Shown piece after piece: positions 6,547 to 16,496 of a DNA stretch of 64,000 bases. Under the pieces are notes generated by a model. It did not search any database and was not told the origin of the DNA. It saw only the letters and a list, made by a program, of their open reading frames with translations. The translations under genes were made by a program, and so were the position numbers. Numbering within the stretch: the first letter of the stretch is position 1; each line of letters begins with the position of its first letter. Location of the stretch: positions 113,772 to 177,771 of the forward strand of contig NZ_JADZAJ010000005.1 in the NCBI RefSeq assembly GCF_020852615.1. Direction: 5' to 3'. The stretch is from Nitrosomonas sp. (lineage in GTDB: Bacteria > Pseudomonadota > Gammaproteobacteria > Burkholderiales > Nitrosomonadaceae).

Positions 6547-6798
6547 TTATTCTTCCTGATCAGATACAGCACGTCTGCTCTTCCGGATCAGACCCTGTTC
6601 TTCTGCCTTGCGTAGCGCTTCATACCTGCAGTGGACTTCAAGAAGCGCCATAATTCTCTGAAACTGAGTCCGAACAGTAGCGGGTGTCCGATCCAGATAT
6701 TGTGCGAGGACTTTTGTGTTGGTTGTTCTTTTCTCCCGGCTCGCCTCGAGTAAGCTGTAATGTGATGGAGGTAAGCGTTTTAGCTGTTTGAGATCCAT
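6547..6798 (-). CDS. Small helix-turn-helix protein, LuxR-like fold
   Basis: An 83-residue protein starting MDLKQLKRLPPSHY. That ATG has GGAG eight bases upstream and is preferred over the track start. The core (TNTKVLAQYLDRTPATVRTQ, then a helix and EALRKAEEQGLI) has the spacing of a LuxR/sigma-region-4-type helix-turn-helix. It follows the pattern 'locate in the cell by repeated divergent HTH, then recognition helix, then EAL..A...G', although it diverges from any named family I know. It has no receiver or ligand domain. It is divergent from the fibre-protein gene at 7353, across about 550 bases of non-coding DNA, so it is a candidate regulator of that cluster. This link rests on position only. 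Confidence 0.6.
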   Translation of the reverse strand: MDLKQLKRLPPSHYSLLEASREKRTTNTKVLAQYLDRTPATVRTQFQRIMALLEVHCRYEALRKAEEQGLIRKSRRAVSDQEE

Positions 6799-7352
6799 AT
6801 ACATTTCTCCAGTTTGATTGAAGTTCAACTGAAATACTATTCAGGATTATTATTCAATCAGTTACAGGTACTGCTTTGAGGGTAACCCTATTATTTACAG
6901 TTTAGCCCATCTCAGCACTATTCGTTAGTTATAAAGCAATAAATATGCCATAAATTTATATATTTGATTTTTAATGTTTATTATCTGCCGGATTAGCTAT
7001 GTTCAGAAGGATTGTAAAATTTTCCGGCAAATATACTACTGCATTACCATGGGTAAAGTGCTGAGTTTTTGGGGGCTATTTTGAGATAGCTATATAAAAA
7101 ATCGGAATAAAAATACCTGTGTGAATAACCTTTTTCCTCCAATACCAGCTGTTCCTGCTGCCTCCTCTGCTCTGATCCATTTTGCAATTCCTGACTCTGT
7201 ATGCAATTGCAGTATTGTCCTGACGGGCACAACCTTCTTACTATGCTTAACGCAGCAAGTGCTGTGGCCAATAGGCGACATTTAACTTGTTGGGGTTGCA
7301 ATACAGATTACGTAATCTGTGTTTTATAAATTTTATGAAAAAGGAAAATACC
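6799..7352. other. Long AT-rich regulatory region before the amyloid-like cluster
   Basis: About 550 bases separate the HTH gene from the ATG at 7353. It is AT-rich, especially 6930-7000. The short ORFs in it (for example the minus-strand 7044-7301) lack ribosome sites and convincing coding character. I see no tRNA, and no clear sigma-54 (GG-N10-GC) promoter. The length suggests a regulated promoter with a long leader, or a small RNA that cannot be recognised by eye. Confidence 0.4.
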
Positions 7353-8528
7353 ATGGATCAATTTTCTAAAAAAATTCTGGTTGCCAGTATCGTTCTGGCA
7401 TTTGGTGCAGCAGGTAATGTTTGGGCAGCCGGAAGTGACAGCCCGGCTCCTGTTACCAAAAGCGTAACAGATGGAAAAGATGTCACAAACGCCGGAAAAG
7501 GTGCCAGTAACTCGGCAGCCAATGGTGGAAGTACTTCAAGCACAGCTGACAGTAGCAACAGCGGTAATACCGACAGCAGCAACAGCGGTAATACACAAAC
7601 CGATAACAGCAACAGCAGCAAAACTGTTACCAAAACTGACAACACCAACAACAGCGATAATCGTGTTGATAATACCAACAACACCAAGACCATTACCAGG
7701 ACAGACAGCAGCACAAACGACAGCAACAACAGCAAAACCAAAACTGTTACAAATACTGACAGCAGCAATAACAGCACCAATGACAGCAATAACAGAACTA
7801 AAACTGTAACTGCTGACAGCAACAACACTGACAGCAGCAACAACAGTGACAACAGCAGCAAAACCAAAACTGTTACGAAAGACAGCTATAACGACAGTAG
7901 CGATAACAGCCAAAGAACCAAGACTGTAACCCGCGACAGCAACAACGATAACAGCAGTGCTAATGCTGATGGTAAAGGCAACGCATCTGCTAACAACAGC
8001 GGTACAGCAAGTGTAACTGACAGCAGTGGTAGCGGTAACACCAAAACTGTTACAAAGGACAGCAACAACGACAACAGCAGCGCAAGCGCACATGGTAAAG
8101 GCAATGCTTCTGCTAACGGTGGCAGCACAGCAACAGCTGACAACAGTGATAACAGTGATAACAGCAAAGCCGGTGCCAAAGATAGAGGTGCAGCTGCAAA
8201 TGGCGGCGGCTCAGCAAGCGTGACCGATAGCAGCGATAACAGCAGAACCAGCGCTAAAGGTGATGGCAGTGCTGCAGCTAACGGCGGTAATGCAACAAGC
8301 ACCTATTCTGTTAACAATGCGTCACTGAGCGGTGTGGTAACCGGTCAGGCTGCTGATGGTGTGCCTGTCAGTGATGCAGTTGGTCTCGTAGGCGGTACTC
8401 TGAGCAACAACATTGATAATTCAATCAATGGTGCCGGCCTGAACCAGGTTGCTCAAAATCTGGGATCAAGCTCCCTGATCCAGCAACAGGTTTCCTTCCA
8501 GGGTAACGTAAACGTTAACCGCCCATAA
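7353..8528 (+). CDS. Secreted Ser/Asn/Asp/Thr-rich repeat protein, candidate fibre (amyloid-like) subunit
   Basis: A 391-residue protein with a clear Sec signal (MDQFSKKILVASIVLAFGAAGNVWAAG). The ATG at 7353 has AAGGAAA upstream and is chosen over the track start at 7287. Residues of about 30-310 are almost only N, S, D, T, K, G and A, with no Cys and hardly any aromatic residue. Imperfect repeats pair a T/K-rich strand (TKTVT, seven copies including KTITRT) with an N/D/S-rich stretch (DSNNDNSS). The repeats grade into A/G/N-rich units (GKGNASAN, AAANGG). A distinct C-terminal tail of about 80 residues (ASLSGVVTGQ...QQQVSFQGNVNVN) is more ordered. Position and export suggest it is the material secreted by the downstream peptidase/barrel genes, as FapC is in Pseudomonas, but the repeats differ and the C-terminal CxxC of FapB/FapC is absent. 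Function is inferred. Confidence 0.7.
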   Translation: MDQFSKKILVASIVLAFGAAGNVWAAGSDSPAPVTKSVTDGKDVTNAGKGASNSAANGGSTSSTADSSNSGNTDSSNSGNTQTDNSNSSKTVTKTDNTNNSDNRVDNTNNTKTITRTDSSTNDSNNSKTKTVTNTDSSNNSTNDSNNRTKTVTADSNNTDSSNNSDNSSKTKTVTKDSYNDSSDNSQRTKTVTRDSNNDNSSANADGKGNASANNSGTASVTDSSGSGNTKTVTKDSNNDNSSASAHGKGNASANGGSTATADNSDNSDNSKAGAKDRGAAANGGGSASVTDSSDNSRTSAKGDGSAAANGGNATSTYSVNNASLSGVVTGQAADGVPVSDAVGLVGGTLSNNIDNSINGAGLNQVAQNLGSSSLIQQQVSFQGNVNVNRP

Positions 8529-8565
8529 AACTGAACAGCTAACAGGGTAGAGGTGTAACTTCAGG

Positions 8566-8603
8566 CTGGCAGGCAACAGTAACGTTGTCTGCCAGTTTTT
8601 TTT
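8566..8603 (+). terminator. Strong intrinsic terminator inside the amyloid-like cluster
   Basis: CTGGCAGGCAAC (8566-8577) pairs with GTTGTCTGCCAG (8584-8595) over 12 bp with one G-U pair and a 6-base loop, followed directly by eight T. It lies between the repeat-protein gene and the next gene. Partial read-through would give much more of the first protein than of the secretion genes, which is the stoichiometry expected for a fibre subunit. Confidence 0.85.
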
Positions 8604-8644
8604 CCAGGATAGGAAAAAAATATGAGTAACAAGTGGAGACGATT

Positions 8645-9013
8645 ATGAAAACCTGTACCAGAAAAGGTTTTGTTGTACTTGCGATATGGATGACCGTCAG
8701 TATGACCTGCGGGGCATCGGGAGTAAGGTCACTTGCACAGGAAGATCATTATCTTCCTCAGGCTGAAAGAGCATCACTGGAGGAGCTTGATAATGCAACA
8801 GGACGTGAAGGAGTTGATGTAACCACTCTAAATAATATGAACGTCCGCGCACTGCTTGCCGGCAACAGGGCCACAAACAATGCAAGCGGTTTTAATTCCA
8901 TTGATAACGGTTCTTTTGTTGGGGCAAGTGGTATGTTTTCGGTAATACAGAACTCGGGAAACAATGTTCTTATTCAGGATTCGACAATTATCAATGTAAC
9001 GATACTGCCCTGA
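8645..9013 (+). CDS. Small secreted protein of the amyloid-like cluster
   Basis: A 122-residue exported protein; ATG 8645 has GGAG six bases upstream, better than the track's GTG at 8633. After the signal (MKTCTRKGFVVLAIWMTVSM...) comes an acidic stretch with ASLEELDNATGREGVDV. This aligns in layout with ASDEELASLRGGFILPNGIQV of the fourth gene: 'EEL', then a glycine pair or near pair about six residues later, here G53-x-x-G56. The rest (SGMFSVIQNSGNNVLIQDSTIINV) is rich in Asn and beta-branched residues and looks beta-prone. It may be a minor fibre component, a nucleator, or an accessory protein comparable to FapB or FapE. No named family is recognised. It is the first gene after the internal terminator. 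Confidence 0.6.
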   Translation: MKTCTRKGFVVLAIWMTVSMTCGASGVRSLAQEDHYLPQAERASLEELDNATGREGVDVTTLNNMNVRALLAGNRATNNASGFNSIDNGSFVGASGMFSVIQNSGNNVLIQDSTIINVTILP

Positions 9014-9095
9014 TTTGAAGTGTGCTTACAGGAAATAAAATTTCAGGTTATCCGCAAAACCGCGAGCTATGCCGTTGTCTGTTCTGGAAATAAGC

Positions 9096-9794
9096 ATGAG
9101 ATTTTTATTTAGATTATTCGTTATTTTGCAAATTTTCTGGGTAATCCGGGGAGGAGAAGCATTTGCCATGGATATGATTGGTGTAGCGGGCGGAGCCAAT
9201 TTCAATATTCAGGGAAAAAGCTTTGCAGAACGGCGATTCAATACGGTTTACAGGCAACAGTTTGATTTCAGCTGCGGATCGGCTGCGTTGGCAAGCCTGC
9301 TTACTTTTCATTATGACGATACAGTTAATGAGCAGTCTGTTTTCATAGACATGTACCAGAATGGTGATCAGGAAAAGATCAAACGGGAAGGCTTTTCCAT
9401 GCTGGATATGAAACTGTATCTTGAACGCAGAGGATATCGTTCGGATGGATTCAAGATTAATCTGGATCAGCTTTGGGCTACCGGGAACCCTGCCATTACC
9501 ATTATTAACCTTAATGGCTACATGCATTTCGTCATTATTAAGGGGGTGGATGAAGAAAAAGTTCTACTGGGGGACCCGGCAATGGGTGTCAAGTCCATGG
9601 ATCGTACCGAATTTGAAAAAATATGGGGTAATCGCATCTTGTTTCTGATCCATAGCGATACTGATCCTGCAGTAAGCTATCAGAAAATACATGCAGAGTG
9701 GGCTGGAAGACTGGCGCCATTGGGCGAAGCGGTAGATCGAACAAGTTTGGGTGTCTTCAATGTACTGCGCCCGGGCCCCTGGGATTTTCGATAA
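9096..9794 (+). CDS. Periplasmic C39-family cysteine peptidase (FapD-like)
   Basis: A 232-residue stand-alone C39 peptidase without ABC-transporter domains. Its N-terminus is a secretion signal (MRFLFRLFVILQIFWVIRGG), which places the catalytic domain in the periplasm. The catalytic set is visible: Cys60 in RQQFDFSCGSAALASLL, His144 in GYMHFVII and Asp160 in LLGDPAMG, with Gln54/Gln55 as candidate oxyanion residue. C39 enzymes cut after double-glycine motifs, and the next gene encodes a protein with GG at residues 61-62. In Pseudomonas, FapD is such a peptidase in the Fap amyloid operon. ATG 9096 (GGAAA upstream) is preferred to 9069 because it gives a clean signal peptide. Only 21 bases separate it from the next gene. 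Confidence 0.85.
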   Translation: MRFLFRLFVILQIFWVIRGGEAFAMDMIGVAGGANFNIQGKSFAERRFNTVYRQQFDFSCGSAALASLLTFHYDDTVNEQSVFIDMYQNGDQEKIKREGFSMLDMKLYLERRGYRSDGFKINLDQLWATGNPAITIINLNGYMHFVIIKGVDEEKVLLGDPAMGVKSMDRTEFEKIWGNRILFLIHSDTDPAVSYQKIHAEWAGRLAPLGEAVDRTSLGVFNVLRPGPWDFR

Positions 9795-9815
9795 TTTGTG
9801 TAATACGAGAGAAAA

Positions 9816-10316
9816 ATGAAAACTACTGATTTCTTTCCGGCTGTTAGGCGCATGCAATTGCGCCTGATGTTATTGGCACTGTTCTGTTTTATGAAACAGG
9901 TGCACGCTGGAGATATTAACGCCGACTCCGCAACACAAAGTGTTTTTCATCAGGAATGGGAACGGGCGTCAGATGAAGAACTCGCTTCTCTCAGGGGAGG
10001 ATTTATTCTTCCCAATGGGATACAGGTTGATATGAGTCTGGAAAAATTTATTCATTTGAATGATGTGCTGGTGCATTCGTCTTCCGTTCACGTTCCGGGA
10101 GAAGGTGTGCTTCTGCAAGCCGGAGGAATGAACTCCGTGTCCGGTTCTGTTGCTGTGCCACAGCTCAGCACCTTTATCCAGAATACACTGGATAGTCAGC
10201 ACATTGACGCACTGACGAAAATCAACATAGATATCAGCAATGTAAAAGGAGCAACGGCAAGTCTAGGTAATCACCGAATGATTACCGATTATCTGGCTCC
10301 TGCACTGTCGCGGTAA
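9816..10316 (+). CDS. Small secreted protein with double-glycine motif
   Basis: A 166-residue exported protein with signal peptide ending around MKQVHAGD. After a short hydrophilic stretch it carries ASDEELASLRGGFILPNG, a textbook double-glycine processing motif (Gly61-Gly62) but placed after a Sec signal instead of at the extreme N-terminus. This fits cleavage in the periplasm by the C39 peptidase encoded just upstream. The remainder (GGMNSVSGSVAVPQLSTFIQNTLDSQHI...) is beta-prone and rich in Ser, Val and Asn. I recall similar 'ELxxLRGGF.LPNG' proteins beside C39 peptidases in other Beta- and Gammaproteobacteria, without an established function. It could be an accessory fibre component (FapA/FapE position) or a substrate of the barrel. 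The start has GAGAGAAAA upstream. Confidence 0.65.
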   Translation: MKTTDFFPAVRRMQLRLMLLALFCFMKQVHAGDINADSATQSVFHQEWERASDEELASLRGGFILPNGIQVDMSLEKFIHLNDVLVHSSSVHVPGEGVLLQAGGMNSVSGSVAVPQLSTFIQNTLDSQHIDALTKINIDISNVKGATASLGNHRMITDYLAPALSR

Positions 10317-10367
10317 TCCAGCCTGATGCTGCCCGATATAAAAAATATATGTGAGGAAGACAGCCAG

Positions 10368-11717
10368 ATGTCAAATATGACTTATAAATTATTTGCCGGT
10401 TGCCTCACAATATTTCTTGCTGTGTATTCTCAGGCAGGAAGGTCTTCGGATGAAATACTTGAGCAATATAAATCTCTTTTTTCGCAGCAGCAGAAGGAAT
10501 TTGAGAAACAGCGGCAAATTATTATCGAGCAGGGAAAAGAGATCGAAAAACTGAAATCCCGTCTGGATTCCCTGACACAGCAGCCAGCCGGCCAGCAGTC
10601 CACCAGCAACAGGGCTGATAAAGGAGCAGAGCAACCGGATTCAGCAAAATTACCCCATTCAAAAGCAGTCGCAGCGCAGCCTGTTGACAAAAGAGATGAT
10701 CATCAGGCGCAGGCACGTGCCGAATCCGGTAATCTTCCAAGTGGCCCGGTAGGGCAGGCGCCACCTAAGCAGAATGAAAAACCAAGACCACCTGAAATGC
10801 CCAGGTTGAGTGATTCGGTAGGAGGAGTGCTGACGCGTAAAGGCAAAATAGTGATTGAACCTTCGCTGGAATATGCTTTTACGGGAGGGAGTCGGGTTTT
10901 TCTGGATGCATTTACCTTTCTTCCGGCTATTGCCATTGGTCTGATCGATATTCGCCAGATCAAGCAGCATAGCCTCATGGCGAGTATTGGTGCCCGTTAC
11001 GGTCTGACAGACCGTTTGGAAATCGAAGCGAGAGTTCCCTACCGGGCCCGATTTGATGAACAACGCTCAAGACCGGTCAGTATTGGCGCAGCAATTGATG
11101 AAACATTTAATGCTTCCGGTAATGGTCTGGGAGATATTGAATTTGCCGCTCGCTACCAGCTGAATTCAGGTGCGGGAGGATGGCCTATTCTGGTGGGCAA
11201 CCTGCAAGCTACAGCGCCTACAGGTAAAGGCCCGTTTGATATTAAATATGCCAGGGCTCAGGGGGTTCCGGGTGCGGTATTTCCTACCGAGGTTCCTACC
11301 GGATCAGGTTTTTTCAGTTTTGAGCCAAGTGTGACTGCACTGTATGCAACTGATCCGGCAGTGTTTTTTGCAAACCTGGCCTATAACTACAATATGGGCT
11401 CCAAACAAAAAGCAATTGACGGGTCAGGTGACAGGTATAAAGTTGATCCCGGCTATGGTCTTGGTTTAACTGTTGGTATGGGGTTTGGGATAAATGAACG
11501 TTCTTCATTCAACATCGCGTACTCTCACCGCCATATCTTTAATACCAGGATCAATAACCAGACGTTGAAAGGCAGCCAGCTTGATATAGGCCAGTTGCTG
11601 ATCGGCTACGCCTTCAAGTATTCACCACAGACCACCCTGAACTTCTCCTTTGCAATAGGCACAACCGAAGATGCACAGGATGTGAGGCTCAGCTTCAGGG
11701 TACCTATGGTCTTTTAG
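10368..11717 (+). CDS. Outer-membrane barrel with N-terminal coiled coil (FapF-like secretin/porin)
   Basis: A 449-residue protein from ATG 10368 (GAGGAAG upstream). The order is: signal peptide (residues 1-25); a heptad-rich helix of about 45 residues (ILEQYKSLFSQQQKEFEKQR... IEKLKSRLDSL), predicted to be a coiled coil; a Pro/Gln/Ala-rich linker to about residue 145; then a beta-barrel with alternating strands (GRIVIEPSLEY-like start, ...LNFSFAIG...) ending LSFRVPMVF. This domain order matches FapF of Pseudomonas, a trimeric barrel with an N-terminal coiled coil that exports Fap amyloid subunits. The gene closes the cluster and follows the GG-motif gene by 51 bases. It could also be annotated as a generic transporter/phenol-degradation-type barrel, but the coiled coil and neighbours favour FapF. 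Confidence 0.75.
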   Translation: MSNMTYKLFAGCLTIFLAVYSQAGRSSDEILEQYKSLFSQQQKEFEKQRQIIIEQGKEIEKLKSRLDSLTQQPAGQQSTSNRADKGAEQPDSAKLPHSKAVAAQPVDKRDDHQAQARAESGNLPSGPVGQAPPKQNEKPRPPEMPRLSDSVGGVLTRKGKIVIEPSLEYAFTGGSRVFLDAFTFLPAIAIGLIDIRQIKQHSLMASIGARYGLTDRLEIEARVPYRARFDEQRSRPVSIGAAIDETFNASGNGLGDIEFAARYQLNSGAGGWPILVGNLQATAPTGKGPFDIKYARAQGVPGAVFPTEVPTGSGFFSFEPSVTALYATDPAVFFANLAYNYNMGSKQKAIDGSGDRYKVDPGYGLGLTVGMGFGINERSSFNIAYSHRHIFNTRINNQTLKGSQLDIGQLLIGYAFKYSPQTTLNFSFAIGTTEDAQDVRLSFRVPMVF

Positions 11718-11769: not shown

Positions 11770-12882
11770 TCATTTCAGCCCCAGGCTCTCCAGTACTTTT
11801 TCGTGATTCCATTTTCCGTGAAACAGGCGGCCTTTATGATCAGGCGTACGGTCACTCGTCCAGGTAATATACTGTCCATCCGGGGTAAATACCGGTAATC
11901 CATCGAATCCTTCCTCATCAGTTACCCGCACCGGCTCTTTTGTACCGTTGATATCAACGATATAAAGCTCAAAATTACGATGCCCTTCAACATTGGTTGC
12001 AAAAATAATGTACTGATTTGACGGGTGATAAAAAGGTGCCCAGGACATTCTGTTAAGCCGGGTGACTTGTTTCTGATCTGACCCGTCAATATTCATGGTA
12101 AATATTTCTGCTTCCTGCCCGTTTTCTGAAAAGCGGCGCCAGACAATCCGCTTCCCGTCCGGACTGAAGAATGGCCCTCCGTCATAGCTGCTGGTGTGTG
12201 TCAGTCTTTTAATATTGGAACCATCTGCATCCATGATATAAATATCGATCATGGAAGAAGGGTTGTTGTTGAAAAGAATAGTTTCTGCTTCAGACAAGGG
12301 TTCATTGTACGCCCGGCGATTGGAAGCAAAAGCAATCAGTTTTCCGTCAGGCGACCAGGAGGCTTCTGCATCATAGCCCTTAGTATGGGTCAAATTCCTG
12401 ATATGCCCACCGTTGAAATCCGCTTCGTAGATATCGTAGAACTCATCGTAATCCCAGGCGTATGCCCGGCGCTGGCCGGATTTTCTCTGTTCAATTTCAG
12501 CCACCATTTTGGCCTTAACCTCAGGGTCATCATGGGTTGAAGAAAACAGTACTTTTTCCTGGCTGGGGTGTATCCATGAACAGGTCGTTTTGCCAACACC
12601 GGGCGAGATCTGTTGTACATTCCCATTTGTCAGGTTTTTCAGATAAATCTGATAAAAAGGATTCTCACCGGTAACTTCGGCCTGATAAACCAGCCATTTG
12701 CCGTCAGCACGATAATAACCTTCACCTGACCGGACTTCCTGATCCGAAATCTGCCTTGCATCGGTAATGAAACCGGCAGCATCTGCCTGTGTCACAGCAA
12801 AAAAACAGGCAATGATCAGTAAACTGCGGGCAAATAAGTACGGAAGGTCAGAAAAATTGATCGATTGTGTAAAATTTTTCAT
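11770..12882 (-). CDS. TolB-like beta-propeller protein, exported
   Basis: A 370-residue protein with signal peptide (LLIIACFFAVTQADAAG) followed by repeated PD40/WD40-like blades, recognisable as 'DAEASWSPDGKLIAFASNR', 'DGGPFFSPDGKRIVW', 'APFYHPSNQYIIFATN' and 'GLPVFTPDGQYITWTSDR'. These are the strands of a TolB-type six-bladed propeller, but the N-terminal TolB domain is absent and no tol/pal genes are near, so it is not TolB itself. It is divergent from the large protease gene at 13062, which suggests a shared role in periplasmic peptide handling; propellers of this type often accompany peptidases. No catalytic motif is visible. Confidence 0.8.
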   Translation of the reverse strand: MKNFTQSINFSDLPYLFARSLLIIACFFAVTQADAAGFITDARQISDQEVRSGEGYYRADGKWLVYQAEVTGENPFYQIYLKNLTNGNVQQISPGVGKTTCSWIHPSQEKVLFSSTHDDPEVKAKMVAEIEQRKSGQRRAYAWDYDEFYDIYEADFNGGHIRNLTHTKGYDAEASWSPDGKLIAFASNRRAYNEPLSEAETILFNNNPSSMIDIYIMDADGSNIKRLTHTSSYDGGPFFSPDGKRIVWRRFSENGQEAEIFTMNIDGSDQKQVTRLNRMSWAPFYHPSNQYIIFATNVEGHRNFELYIVDINGTKEPVRVTDEEGFDGLPVFTPDGQYITWTSDRTPDHKGRLFHGKWNHEKVLESLGLK

Positions 12883-13061: not shown

Positions 13062-16000
13062 ATGACAAAATCCGCCAGATTGCTTTCTTCATGCTGCCTT
13101 ATTGCTGCCAGCCTCTTCTGCAGCATCAATGTATCTGCCGGCAACCAGATTTTTCATCATCAGATGGAGGTAATGCTTTCACCGGACAGTTCAGAAATCC
13201 GGGTGAAAGATCAGATCCGGATACCGGCAAACAGAGTGGACCAGACAGCAGCCACTCGCCTGGAATTCAGTCTGCATGCCGCTCTGACCGTTATTGCAGA
13301 TGAAGATACTGAAGTTATTGTTCAGACGGCAGGTAATACCGATGTACATGCCGGCCCCGTACCCCTGAAACGATACAGAGTCACACTTCCCGCAGGAAAA
13401 GATACTTTTTCCCTTGGCTTCAGCGGGCATATTCACCATGCAGTGCGCGATCCCAGCCTGGAATACGCACGCAGTTTCAGCTATTCACCCGGACTGATTA
13501 CCGAAGAAGGGGTATTCCTTGCCAGCTCCACTGCCTGGTATCCGCAATTTGACGGAGATATGGTGTCATTTCATCTGGATGTTCAGCTGCCTGCCGGCTG
13601 GGATGTCGTCAGTCAGGGCAAACGGGTTGCCGAGCAAACTACAAAAACTGTCCGGCACGTTATCTGGGAAGAAATAAATCCACAGGACGATATTTACCTT
13701 GTCGCCGGACGCTACCAGCGTTATCAGCAATCTATCGGGGCGGTGGAAGCCTATGTTTACCTGCGCAGCCCCGATCAGGCGCTGGCACAAAAATATCTGG
13801 ATACCACAGGGCAATATATTGCCCTGTATAACAGGCTGATCGGTCCTTACCCTTATCCAAAATTTGCACTGGTCGAGAATTTCTGGGAAACCGGTTACGG
13901 CATGCCTTCTTTCACGCTGCTGGGGCCAAAAGTCATCCGTTTTCCGTTCATTCTGCACACCTCCTACCCGCACGAGATTCTGCACAACTACTGGGGCAAC
14001 GGAGTATTCGTTGATTACAGCAAAGGAAACTGGTCAGAAGGGTTGACGGCTTATCTTGCCGATCATCTCACCAGTGAGCAGAGCGGCAAAGGGGAAGAAT
14101 ACCGTCGTGATGTGCTGCAGAAATATACTGATTTTGTGAATCAAGAAAAGGATTTCCCGATTATCCGTTTTACCTCACGCCACAGTCCCAGTTCAGAAGC
14201 AATCGGTTATGGCAAAACTATGATGCTGTTTCATATGTTGCGGCAGGAATTGGGAGACAGGGATTTTATTAACGTGTTGCGCAGCTTTTATAAACAATAT
14301 CTATTCAAACAGGCGACTTTTGAAGATTTGCAGAATATTTTCAATACACAAACCGGTAAGGATTTTTCTTCATTTTTTCAGCAATGGGTGTATCAGAGTG
14401 GTGCGCCGGATCTGTTGCTTGAAAGTGCACAAGCTGAGCCTAATACAGCATCCGGGGAGAAAAGTTATCGGCTAAAAGCGATCATCAAACAAACGCAATC
14501 GGGGATGCCTTATCAGCTGAATGTGCCGGTTGCCGTACATCTGGAAGGGGAGACAACTGCCTGGCAGACGCGGATTAATATTGATCAATCGGTAAACCTC
14601 ATCGAACTGGATCTGCCGGCACGTCCGGTACGGATTGATGTTGATCCGCAATTTGATGTATTCCGGCGTCTGGACAGTCGTGAAATTCCCGCTGCCCTGT
14701 CACAGGGATTTGGTGCAGAAAACCCGTTGCTGATCCTGCCGGCCAGTGCCGGCAGGGAATTACTGCAGGCATATCAGCAGCTTGCCGCTACCTGGCAGAA
14801 AACCCAGTCCGGTTCACTGGAAATTATTCAAGATGATGAGCTGGAAACATTGCCTGCAGATCGCACTGTCTGGATCCTGGGTTGGCAAAACAGATTCAGT
14901 CATCACATGATTACTGCTCTGTCGGAGCATCATGTGACCGGTAAAACAGGAGAATTGCAGCTGAATGGGCAAACTTACCAGCAGGAAAAACATGCTGTGG
15001 TGCTGTCAGTGCGACAACCGGCCAACCCCGACCTGACATTGCTGTGGGTGGCAGCAGATCAACCTGAAGCGATTGCGGAACTGGCCGGAAAACTGCCGCA
15101 TTACCGCAAATACAGTTATCTGGCATTTGAAAGCGGGGGAGAGGGCGGGGAATTAAACAACATCAGTAAGGGCCAGTGGCCGGTAACCCGCTCACCCCTG
15201 ACGCGACTGATCACACAGAAGGGTGATGCTTCGCTTACCTCCGGCCATACCGGCACGCTGGCGCCACGCCATGCACTGGCAGAGTTACCGCCACTGTTTT
15301 CAGAAAACCGCATGCTGGAAGATATTACATTTCTGGCTGGTGAAACGCTTAAAGGACGCGAGCTTGGCAGTCCGGAACTGGATAAGGCAGCAGACTATAT
15401 TGCACAGCAATTTCAGCAGGCAGGGTTGCAACCCGGTGGCGATGGAAAGGGTAAGGAGGGCTATTTTCAGGATTGGCATCAGGAAGTGGGGGCACCAAAA
15501 GGCAAAATCCCGCTGCGGAATGTTATTGGCATCCTGCCTGGTATCAATCCGCAACTGACCGGACAAAGCCTGATTATCGGCGCACATTACGACCATCTCG
15601 GTTTGGGCTGGCCGGATGTGCGTGCAGCCAATCGCGGCAAGATTCATTATGGTGCGGATGATAACGCCAGTGGTATTGCCGTTATGCTTGAACTGGCGCG
15701 ACAGATTGCAACCAAATGGCAACCGCAACGCACCATTATTTTTATTGCCTTTACCGGAGAAGAAGCTGGTTTACTGGGTGCTACCCATTACCTGAGCAAT
15801 CTGACCGGTTACCCGGCGGACAAGATCATTGCCATGCTGAACCTGGATACCGTTGGTCGATTGGGAAACAATCCTGTTACTGTGTTTGGTACAGGAACAG
15901 CAAGCGAGCTGGTGCATATATTCCGCGGCGCTGGTTTTGTTACCGGTATTCCCGTTAACGCGATAACCCATGATTTTGGCTCCGGTGATCAGACTGCTTT

Positions 16001-16496
16001 TATCAAAACCGGGATACCGGCAGTCCAGTTCTTTGGCAGCACACACAAGGACTATCACACGCCGGGTGACACCATCGATAAAATCGATACGGCCGGGCTG
16101 GTCAAAGTGGCAGCCATTCTCAAGGAAGGTGCAGAATATCTGGCCAATCGTCCTGAACTGCTAACGGTTGCGCCGGGTAACGGTCATCGGTCAGCCGGCA
16201 CAGTACAGGCACCCGATCGGATAAAAGCCAAACGCAAAGTCATTATTGGTACCGTACCGGATTTTTCCTGGCAGGGGGAGGGGGTACGTGTGGATGGTGT
16301 GCTTCCTGATTCACCGGCACAGCAAGCACAATTACAGCCGGGCGACATACTGACCCGGCTGGCGGGACAGCCCATCACTGATTTGAGATCATACGCCGAT
16401 ATTCTTCGTCAACTGAAGGCAGACAGGGAAGTCGAACTGCAGTTTCAGCGGGGAAAAGAGCACACAGCAATAAAAATTGTACCGGTTGAGCGTTAA
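13062..16496 (+). CDS. Exported gluzincin aminopeptidase-M28 peptidase-PDZ fusion
   Basis: A 1144-residue protease with signal peptide ([21 protein letters not shown]). Domain 1 is M1-like: zinc motif HEILH at residues 304-308, with the third ligand Glu326 in NWSEGL. The spacing is HEXXH-X17-E, one residue shorter than the usual M1 X18. Domain 2 (about 750-1030) is an M28 peptidase with dinuclear zinc ligands visible in GAHYDHLG (His842), [24 protein letters not shown] and [12 protein letters not shown] domain ([19 protein letters not shown]) closes the protein. The combination implies periplasmic or surface trimming of peptides from the N-terminus by two catalytic centres. It is divergent from the TolB-like gene. 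The family of each domain is clear; the substrate is not. Confidence 0.88.

Follow-up and report, generated by a model that had tools for sequence, protein, structure and literature searches.

Five adjacent genes on the plus strand of a DNA stretch from Nitrosomonas sp. (64,000 nucleotides, referred to here in its entirety as the window) raise the question which product they export and by which machinery. An earlier note, made from the letters alone, had found here five genes for exported proteins (positions 7353–11717) and had suggested that they mirror the functional amyloid operon Fap of Pseudomonas. All five open reading frames, designated g1 to g5 in the order of transcription, were recovered at these positions, and each of the encoded proteins starts with a hydrophobic, signal-like segment as judged by eye. 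The locus is best read as a divergent secretion system of FapDEF type which serves a fibre on the cell surface, with a probability of about 70% for this reading including the mechanism proposed below. What the earlier note had observed was confirmed and its interpretation gained support, the product being possibly an amyloid; the three results which it had listed as refuting it did not turn up. It did not mention two features, namely the double-glycine leaders predicted for g2 and g4 and a C-terminal repeat of Fap type, present in one copy each in g1 and g2.

The closest links to known systems come from the peptidase and the barrel. The third gene, g3 (9069–9794), encodes a stand-alone protein of 241 amino acids without a fused ABC transporter, which matched the Pfam family Peptidase_C39 at 3e-19 and the C39 domains of LahT, PCAT1, and ComA (PDB 6mpz, 4ry2, and 3k8u). 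Its catalytic residues are cysteine 69, histidine 153, and aspartate 169 together with the oxyanion glutamine 63; the intact triad is the one previously described as cysteine 60, histidine 144, and aspartate 160, a numbering which results from an internal start at 9096. Comparison with NCBIfam yielded 136 bits (1e-39) for FapD, where the equivalog cut-off is 330 bits, and 124 bits for FilB, both scores remaining under the equivalog cut-offs. In 82 relatives of g3 the histidine and the aspartate are present without exception, and the motif Q-x5-C-G is found in 80. g3 is homologous to the FapD/FilB-type peptidases. In Pseudomonas FapD and its cysteine are essential, its target was reported to be unclear, and the Fap proteins were described as being without canonical C39 sequences (PMC5557850). 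A review from 2025 still names FapE and FapF as the proteins which FapD is "thought" to process (PMC12822426).

The last gene, g5 (10326–11717), encodes an outer-membrane barrel with an N-terminal coiled coil. FapF proved to be its best family in NCBIfam with 148 bits, followed by FilC with 65 bits, again both under the equivalog cut-offs (700 bits for FapF), and the Pfam family Phenol_MetA_deg reached 18.6 bits. A profile built from eight barrels retrieved FapF from the PDB at 4e-45 and no other credible match. The AlphaFold model of g5 is of middling confidence with a mean predicted local distance difference test (pLDDT) score of 58; it shows a long helix at the N-terminus (residues 41–84) and a strand-rich C-terminal barrel, and a Foldseek search with this model returned FapF chains as the top 18 hits (best 2e-18), followed by a COG4313 channel at 2e-11. 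g5 is homologous to FapF. A tree of the barrels placed the one of the window inside Nitrosomonas. In the same tree, drawn for L066–L145 with midpoint rooting, Nitrosomonas is nested within the barrels of methanotrophs (forks 98/92 and 97/93), and the remaining Burkholderiales form a separate clade; a transfer of the barrel gene between methane and ammonia oxidisers is possible from this topology. One record titled Cytophagales (Bacteroidota), L107, sits among alphaproteobacterial loci and is probably a binning error.

The five genes recur side by side in many other genomes, far beyond what chance would produce. A scan with one genome per species yielded 419 barrel relatives, from which 80 loci were kept, stemming from Nitrosomonas, methanotrophs, Burkholderiales, Dyella, Neptunomonas, and others; with eight further loci from a survey of the genus and the order, some of them from species already represented, the set came to 88 loci. 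The peptidase is present in 82 of these, and in 73 of the 82 its gene is flanked contiguously and on the same strand by g2 on the upstream side and by g4 on the downstream side, most of the remaining ones being affected by contig ends or long overlapping reading frames. A large low-complexity protein of g1 type is encoded upstream of g2 in 73 of 77 loci, and the orientation of the barrel gene differs between loci. Closely similar loci occur in Nitrosomonas eutropha and N. europaea, seven relatives have the same block order, and the block is found whole or in parts in other families of the order and is conserved across Beta- and Gammaproteobacteria. Within the genus the barrel is patchy, being detected at E≤1e-3 in 10 of 37 genomes, two of these with weak or fragmentary matches. 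In the genome of the window, a 2.09 Mb assembly, the thresholds applied revealed no second copy of the C39, g2, or FapF-type genes, the one exception being a weak barrel match of 12.8 bits. On a Croceicoccus plasmid the same layout is annotated as hypothetical, hypothetical, C39 family peptidase, hypothetical, and transporter; since these names are only generic, the branch appears to be unnamed. Pairs of fapD and fapF are known from further phyla in a study which does not describe this branch (PMC6173800).

What the peptidase might cut is suggested by its two small neighbours. The protein of g4 (9816–10316, 166 amino acids) is FapE-like by position and leader motif. It scored 14 bits against the NCBIfam FapE family, which has a cut-off of 250 bits, and the match was confined to residues 51–69, ASDEELASLRGGFILPNGI. 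Soon after the Sec signal peptide its residues fit a double-glycine leader with E(-8), L(-7), L(-4), G(-2), and G(-1). The published leader consensus of C39 peptidases is L(-12)xxxE(-8)L(-7)xxxxGG, as reported for PCAT1, with a hydrophobic residue at -4, and the groove of LahT takes Val-4, Leu-7, and Leu-12 (PMC6959990, PMC6363468). At -12 g4 has alanine in the window and A, V, L, I, or M across the family, thus not strictly leucine. The predicted leader, E(-8)L(-7)ASL(-4)RG(-2)G(-1), is encoded at 9978–10001, with the predicted cut after RGG and phenylalanine as the next residue. The pattern L-x3-RGG[FM], which was picked after inspection of the data, matched 72 of the 73 g4 proteins but not one of the 2716 remaining reading frames of the same loci; the sole exception to RGG has RAG. 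This exception is L095 (Methylocaldum), where alanine replaces glycine at -2 both in g4 (RAG) and in g2 (RAR) of one locus; in its near neighbour L097 the replacement is seen in g2 only.

The protein of g2 (8645–9013, 122 amino acids), a FapB-like candidate minor subunit, has a predicted leader of its own at 8783–8806, E(-8)L(-7)DNATG(-2)R(-1), with a predicted cut after TGR. In an alignment of 57 g2 proteins leucine at -7 is invariant and glycine at -2 nearly so, and L-x3-RG[GRK] is found in 55 of 72 g2 proteins compared to 26 of 2716 background reading frames. The AlphaFold model of g2 is of low confidence (pLDDT 52.5, predicted template modelling score 0.19); its best-modelled block contains a short helix at residues 45–51, corresponding to leader positions -10 to -4, to which little weight was given. 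In complexes of C39 peptidases the leader is seen as a helix, and the helix of the g2 model matches this.

The same register recurs outside the locus. FapE proteins, including those of Pseudomonas, have [LM]xx[LMIQ]RG[KR][YF] in register with g4 (a tally of 20 windows, one of which comes from a barrel reading frame and is to be discounted; four sequences were over the FapE family cut-off), and FilA-type proteins have LSxVTGQ in this register in nine unique windows. A profile comparison of the g4 N-terminus with that of FapE scored 27.9, the maximum of 100 column shuffles being 14.3. FapE is the only Fap protein which shows complete N-terminal processing, and its N-terminal peptides are missing in Fap proteomics (PMC5557850). 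Because of the leader motif and the shared register, the candidate substrates are g4, g2, FapE, and FilA, and we infer that these leaders are cut by the respective C39 peptidase.

The presumed bulk of the product is encoded by g1 (7353–8528), a protein of 391 amino acids which keeps a signal-like N-terminus, contains no cysteine, and consists to 68% of asparagine, serine, aspartate, and threonine in residues 61–320. This candidate major fibre subunit had been described as lacking FapC-like repeats. The statement holds for the body of the protein but not for the ends of g1 and g2, each of which has one divergent repeat of Fap type. The C-terminal modules of g1 (INGAGLNQVAQNLGSSSLIQQQVSF, 8424–8498) and g2 (IDNGSFVGASGMFSVIQNSGNNVLIQDSTIIN, 8900–8995), comprising the last 35 residues or so, scored 45.3 against each other with a null maximum of 14.2, and the C-terminal module of g4 (LSTFIQNTLDSQHIDALTKINIDISN, 10164–10241) is kin to that of g2 (score 26.7, null maximum 14.6, 0 of 100 shuffles). 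Against the Fap repeats a diverse alignment of the g2 module scored 24.2 (null maximum 16.5, 0 of 200 shuffles) and 76 diverse g1 C-termini scored 17.7 (null maximum 13.4, 0 of 200 shuffles); the latter comparison was not significant when only the few closest relatives were used, and g4 against the Fap repeats was not significant. The alignment of the Fap repeats with the g1 and g2 modules has the pattern I-x3-[AF]-x2-AxG-x3-V-x4-G. Pfam and PHROGs contained no family matching g1, g2, or g4, there was no NCBIfam FapB match for g2, and no FapC match was obtained among the proteins of the locus or in the genome of the window; the g2 profile was matched by one bona fide FapB at 4e-4.

Across the relatives the last 45 residues of g1-type proteins are conserved whereas the body diverges, being rich in asparagine, serine, aspartate, and threonine in Nitrosomonas and methanotrophs and containing 20–37% glycine in many Burkholderiales. 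Tandem copies of g1 were seen in two genomes of the genus and order survey. Paralogues of g1 type in tandem or nearby occur in L019, L020, L072, L091, L111, L116, L125, and L139, and such pairs may represent major and minor subunits. The gap between g1 and g2 contains a hairpin of 15 pairs with a T tail (8563–8598, plus strand), resembling an intrinsic terminator, which is also present in five of five neighbours of the N. europaea/eutropha type. By strict criteria a hairpin was found at this place in 15 of 65 loci, compared to 0.6 expected from shuffles. Owing to this hairpin the genes behind it are probably expressed at a lower level than g1, so that g1 would be made in excess, as fits a major subunit.

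The analysis established the homology of g3 and g5, the conservation of the genes as a set, the leader motif, and the module common to the C-termini; from these we infer cleavage, export, and formation of a fibre, possibly an amyloid, in the following manner. All five proteins would cross the inner membrane via Sec, and once signal peptidase has cut g4 and g2, the double-glycine leader would lie close to the start of the shortened proteins. Soluble in the periplasm, g3 would bind these leaders and cut g4 behind RGG and g2 behind (T/R)G(R/G). The trimmed FapE-like g4 and FapB-like g2 would then engage the coiled coil of g5 and start export through the barrel, and g1, present in excess, would pass the same barrel in an unfolded state to form the bulk of the fibre. 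Its single C-terminal repeat of Fap type, common to g2 and present in a related form in g4, may serve g1 for docking, nucleation, polymerisation, or adhesion.

Several observations weigh against this mechanism. The pattern RG[GRK] is absent from 17 of 72 g2 relatives, and the counts of the leader motifs stem from related sequences and are thus not independent events. Many candidate substrates have arginine, lysine, or glutamine at P1, where classical C39 peptidases favour glycine, alanine, or serine. Profile comparison found no similarity of g4 to FapE downstream of the leader motif. Both AlphaFold models are weak, with mean pLDDT values of 58 for g5 and 52 for g2. Furthermore g1 has a single repeat of Fap type where FapC has three, and the low-complexity stretch that makes up its body may be an extended linker rather than an amyloid core. 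In the most serious competing explanation the same machine exports a product other than amyloid: g1 would be a disordered, flexible adhesin or matrix polymer, held at the surface by its C-terminal module and forming no cross-beta fibre. The low complexity of its body, which diverges freely while only the C-terminus of the protein is kept, and the single repeat as compared to three in FapC, in a genome with no FapC match, speak for such a polymer; however, the module of g1 and g2 is related to the amyloid repeat of FapB and FapC, and Fap homologues likewise have highly variable linkers (PMC3792158). We consider the polymer a tentative alternative with somewhat less than even chances.

Another way to explain the peptidase is that it cuts the periplasmic linker of the barrel and thereby opens or shuts the pore, the RGG of g2 and g4 serving otherwise, for example for binding the peptidase as a chaperone. 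Cleavage of FapF has already been proposed (PMC5557850), and the Nitrosomonas barrels do have a GG motif near the plug (VGGVLT), but this motif is not kept in relatives, which have PGVLT and PTVLT in L022 and L023, whereas RGG is nearly invariant in g4, and the catalytic residues are conserved. Cleavage of the barrel at GG was judged unlikely since the GG is not conserved. That the locus might be a branch of Fil (FilA-F), a putative pilus system, is unlikely: the FilB score of g3 is close to its FapD score and FilA-type proteins share the register of the leader, but the barrel scores more than twice as high with FapF as with FilC, none of the five genes encodes a FilA-type protein, and FilA has glutamine at P1 as compared to glycine or arginine here. 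Hardly credible is an accidental neighbourhood of ordinary transport genes and unrelated exported proteins, for which one could quote the weak matches of the barrel to generic families; it was rejected because the gene set is conserved across the loci, in Beta- as well as Gammaproteobacteria.

The surroundings of the locus contain further features. Upstream of g1 a divergently oriented gene (6547–6828, minus strand) encodes a helix-turn-helix-like protein of 93 amino acids, which is kept in close Nitrosomonas relatives. Between the two genes, 34–49 bases ahead of the start of g1, lies a perfect palindrome of 16 base pairs, CAGATTACGTAATCTG (7304–7319), of which N. europaea and N. eutropha have imperfect counterparts; the protein and the palindrome are possibly a regulator and its operator. 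Convergent with the locus is a gene for an exported beta-propeller protein with PD40/WD40-like repeats (11770–12882, minus strand). It is followed at 13062–16496 on the plus strand by a protein of 1144 amino acids which by eye combines an M1-type aminopeptidase, an M28-type peptidase, and a C-terminal PDZ domain, an unusual architecture.

The main value of the locus lies in the question of the substrate of FapD, which it makes directly testable: g4, standing in the position of FapE, has a near-textbook double-glycine leader, and when the two are aligned FapE falls into the same register, the last position being taken by lysine or arginine, so that a cut of FapE after LRG[KR] is predicted. It is also suggested that Fap, Fil, and the present branch share one activation step. 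In this generalisation, which we consider fairly probable, the stand-alone periplasmic C39 peptidases FapD, FilB, and g3 would form one class of secretion activators which read a Sec signal peptide plus double-glycine leader on the initiators FapE, FilA, g2, and g4, and the locus would be a third, widespread, and unnamed branch whose fibre subunit combines a low-complexity body, free to evolve, with one conserved repeat of Fap type. As unidentified amyloid-like matrix proteins have been reported from granules of ammonia-oxidising bacteria (PMC6291783), the locus may be suggested as a candidate source of these.

Compared to the known systems, the locus shares with PCAT, ComA, and LahT the C39 fold and the leader consensus of E(-8), L(-7), a hydrophobic residue at -4, and GG. 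In contrast to these g3 is stand-alone and periplasmic without an ABC transporter, a Sec signal peptide precedes the leader, and P1 may be glycine, arginine, lysine, or glutamine in the candidate substrates of the stand-alone enzymes. With Fil of the Pseudomonadales it has in common a periplasmic C39 peptidase, a related barrel (FilC), and an exported subunit with the same leader register; it differs in a barrel closer to FapF, a FapD score above that of FilB, the lack of a FilA match, and in P1, which is glutamine in the Fil leader. The likeness to fapABCDEF of Pseudomonas extends furthest, including the FapF-type coiled-coil barrel, the periplasmic C39 peptidase with intact triad, a FapE-like protein which has an L(-7)..RG[KRG] leader and whose gene comes immediately behind that of the peptidase, the repeat of Fap type in the candidate exported subunits, and a near-collinear order (C, B, D, E, F). 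This order is not the A-B-C-D-E-F of Fap, a difference which the earlier note had already pointed out, and no FapA is found among the five genes; loss of fapA is common among known Fap systems (PMC3792158). There is no FapC with three repeats of about 39 residues, g1 and g2 have one divergent C-terminal copy each, g2 carries a predicted leader where none was seen in FapB, and g4 has the canonical RGG where FapE has RG[KR]. None of the proteins reaches the NCBIfam cut-offs for Fap, and g4 is not a FapE equivalog. The locus is not a Fap operon proper but a divergent and widespread relative of it.

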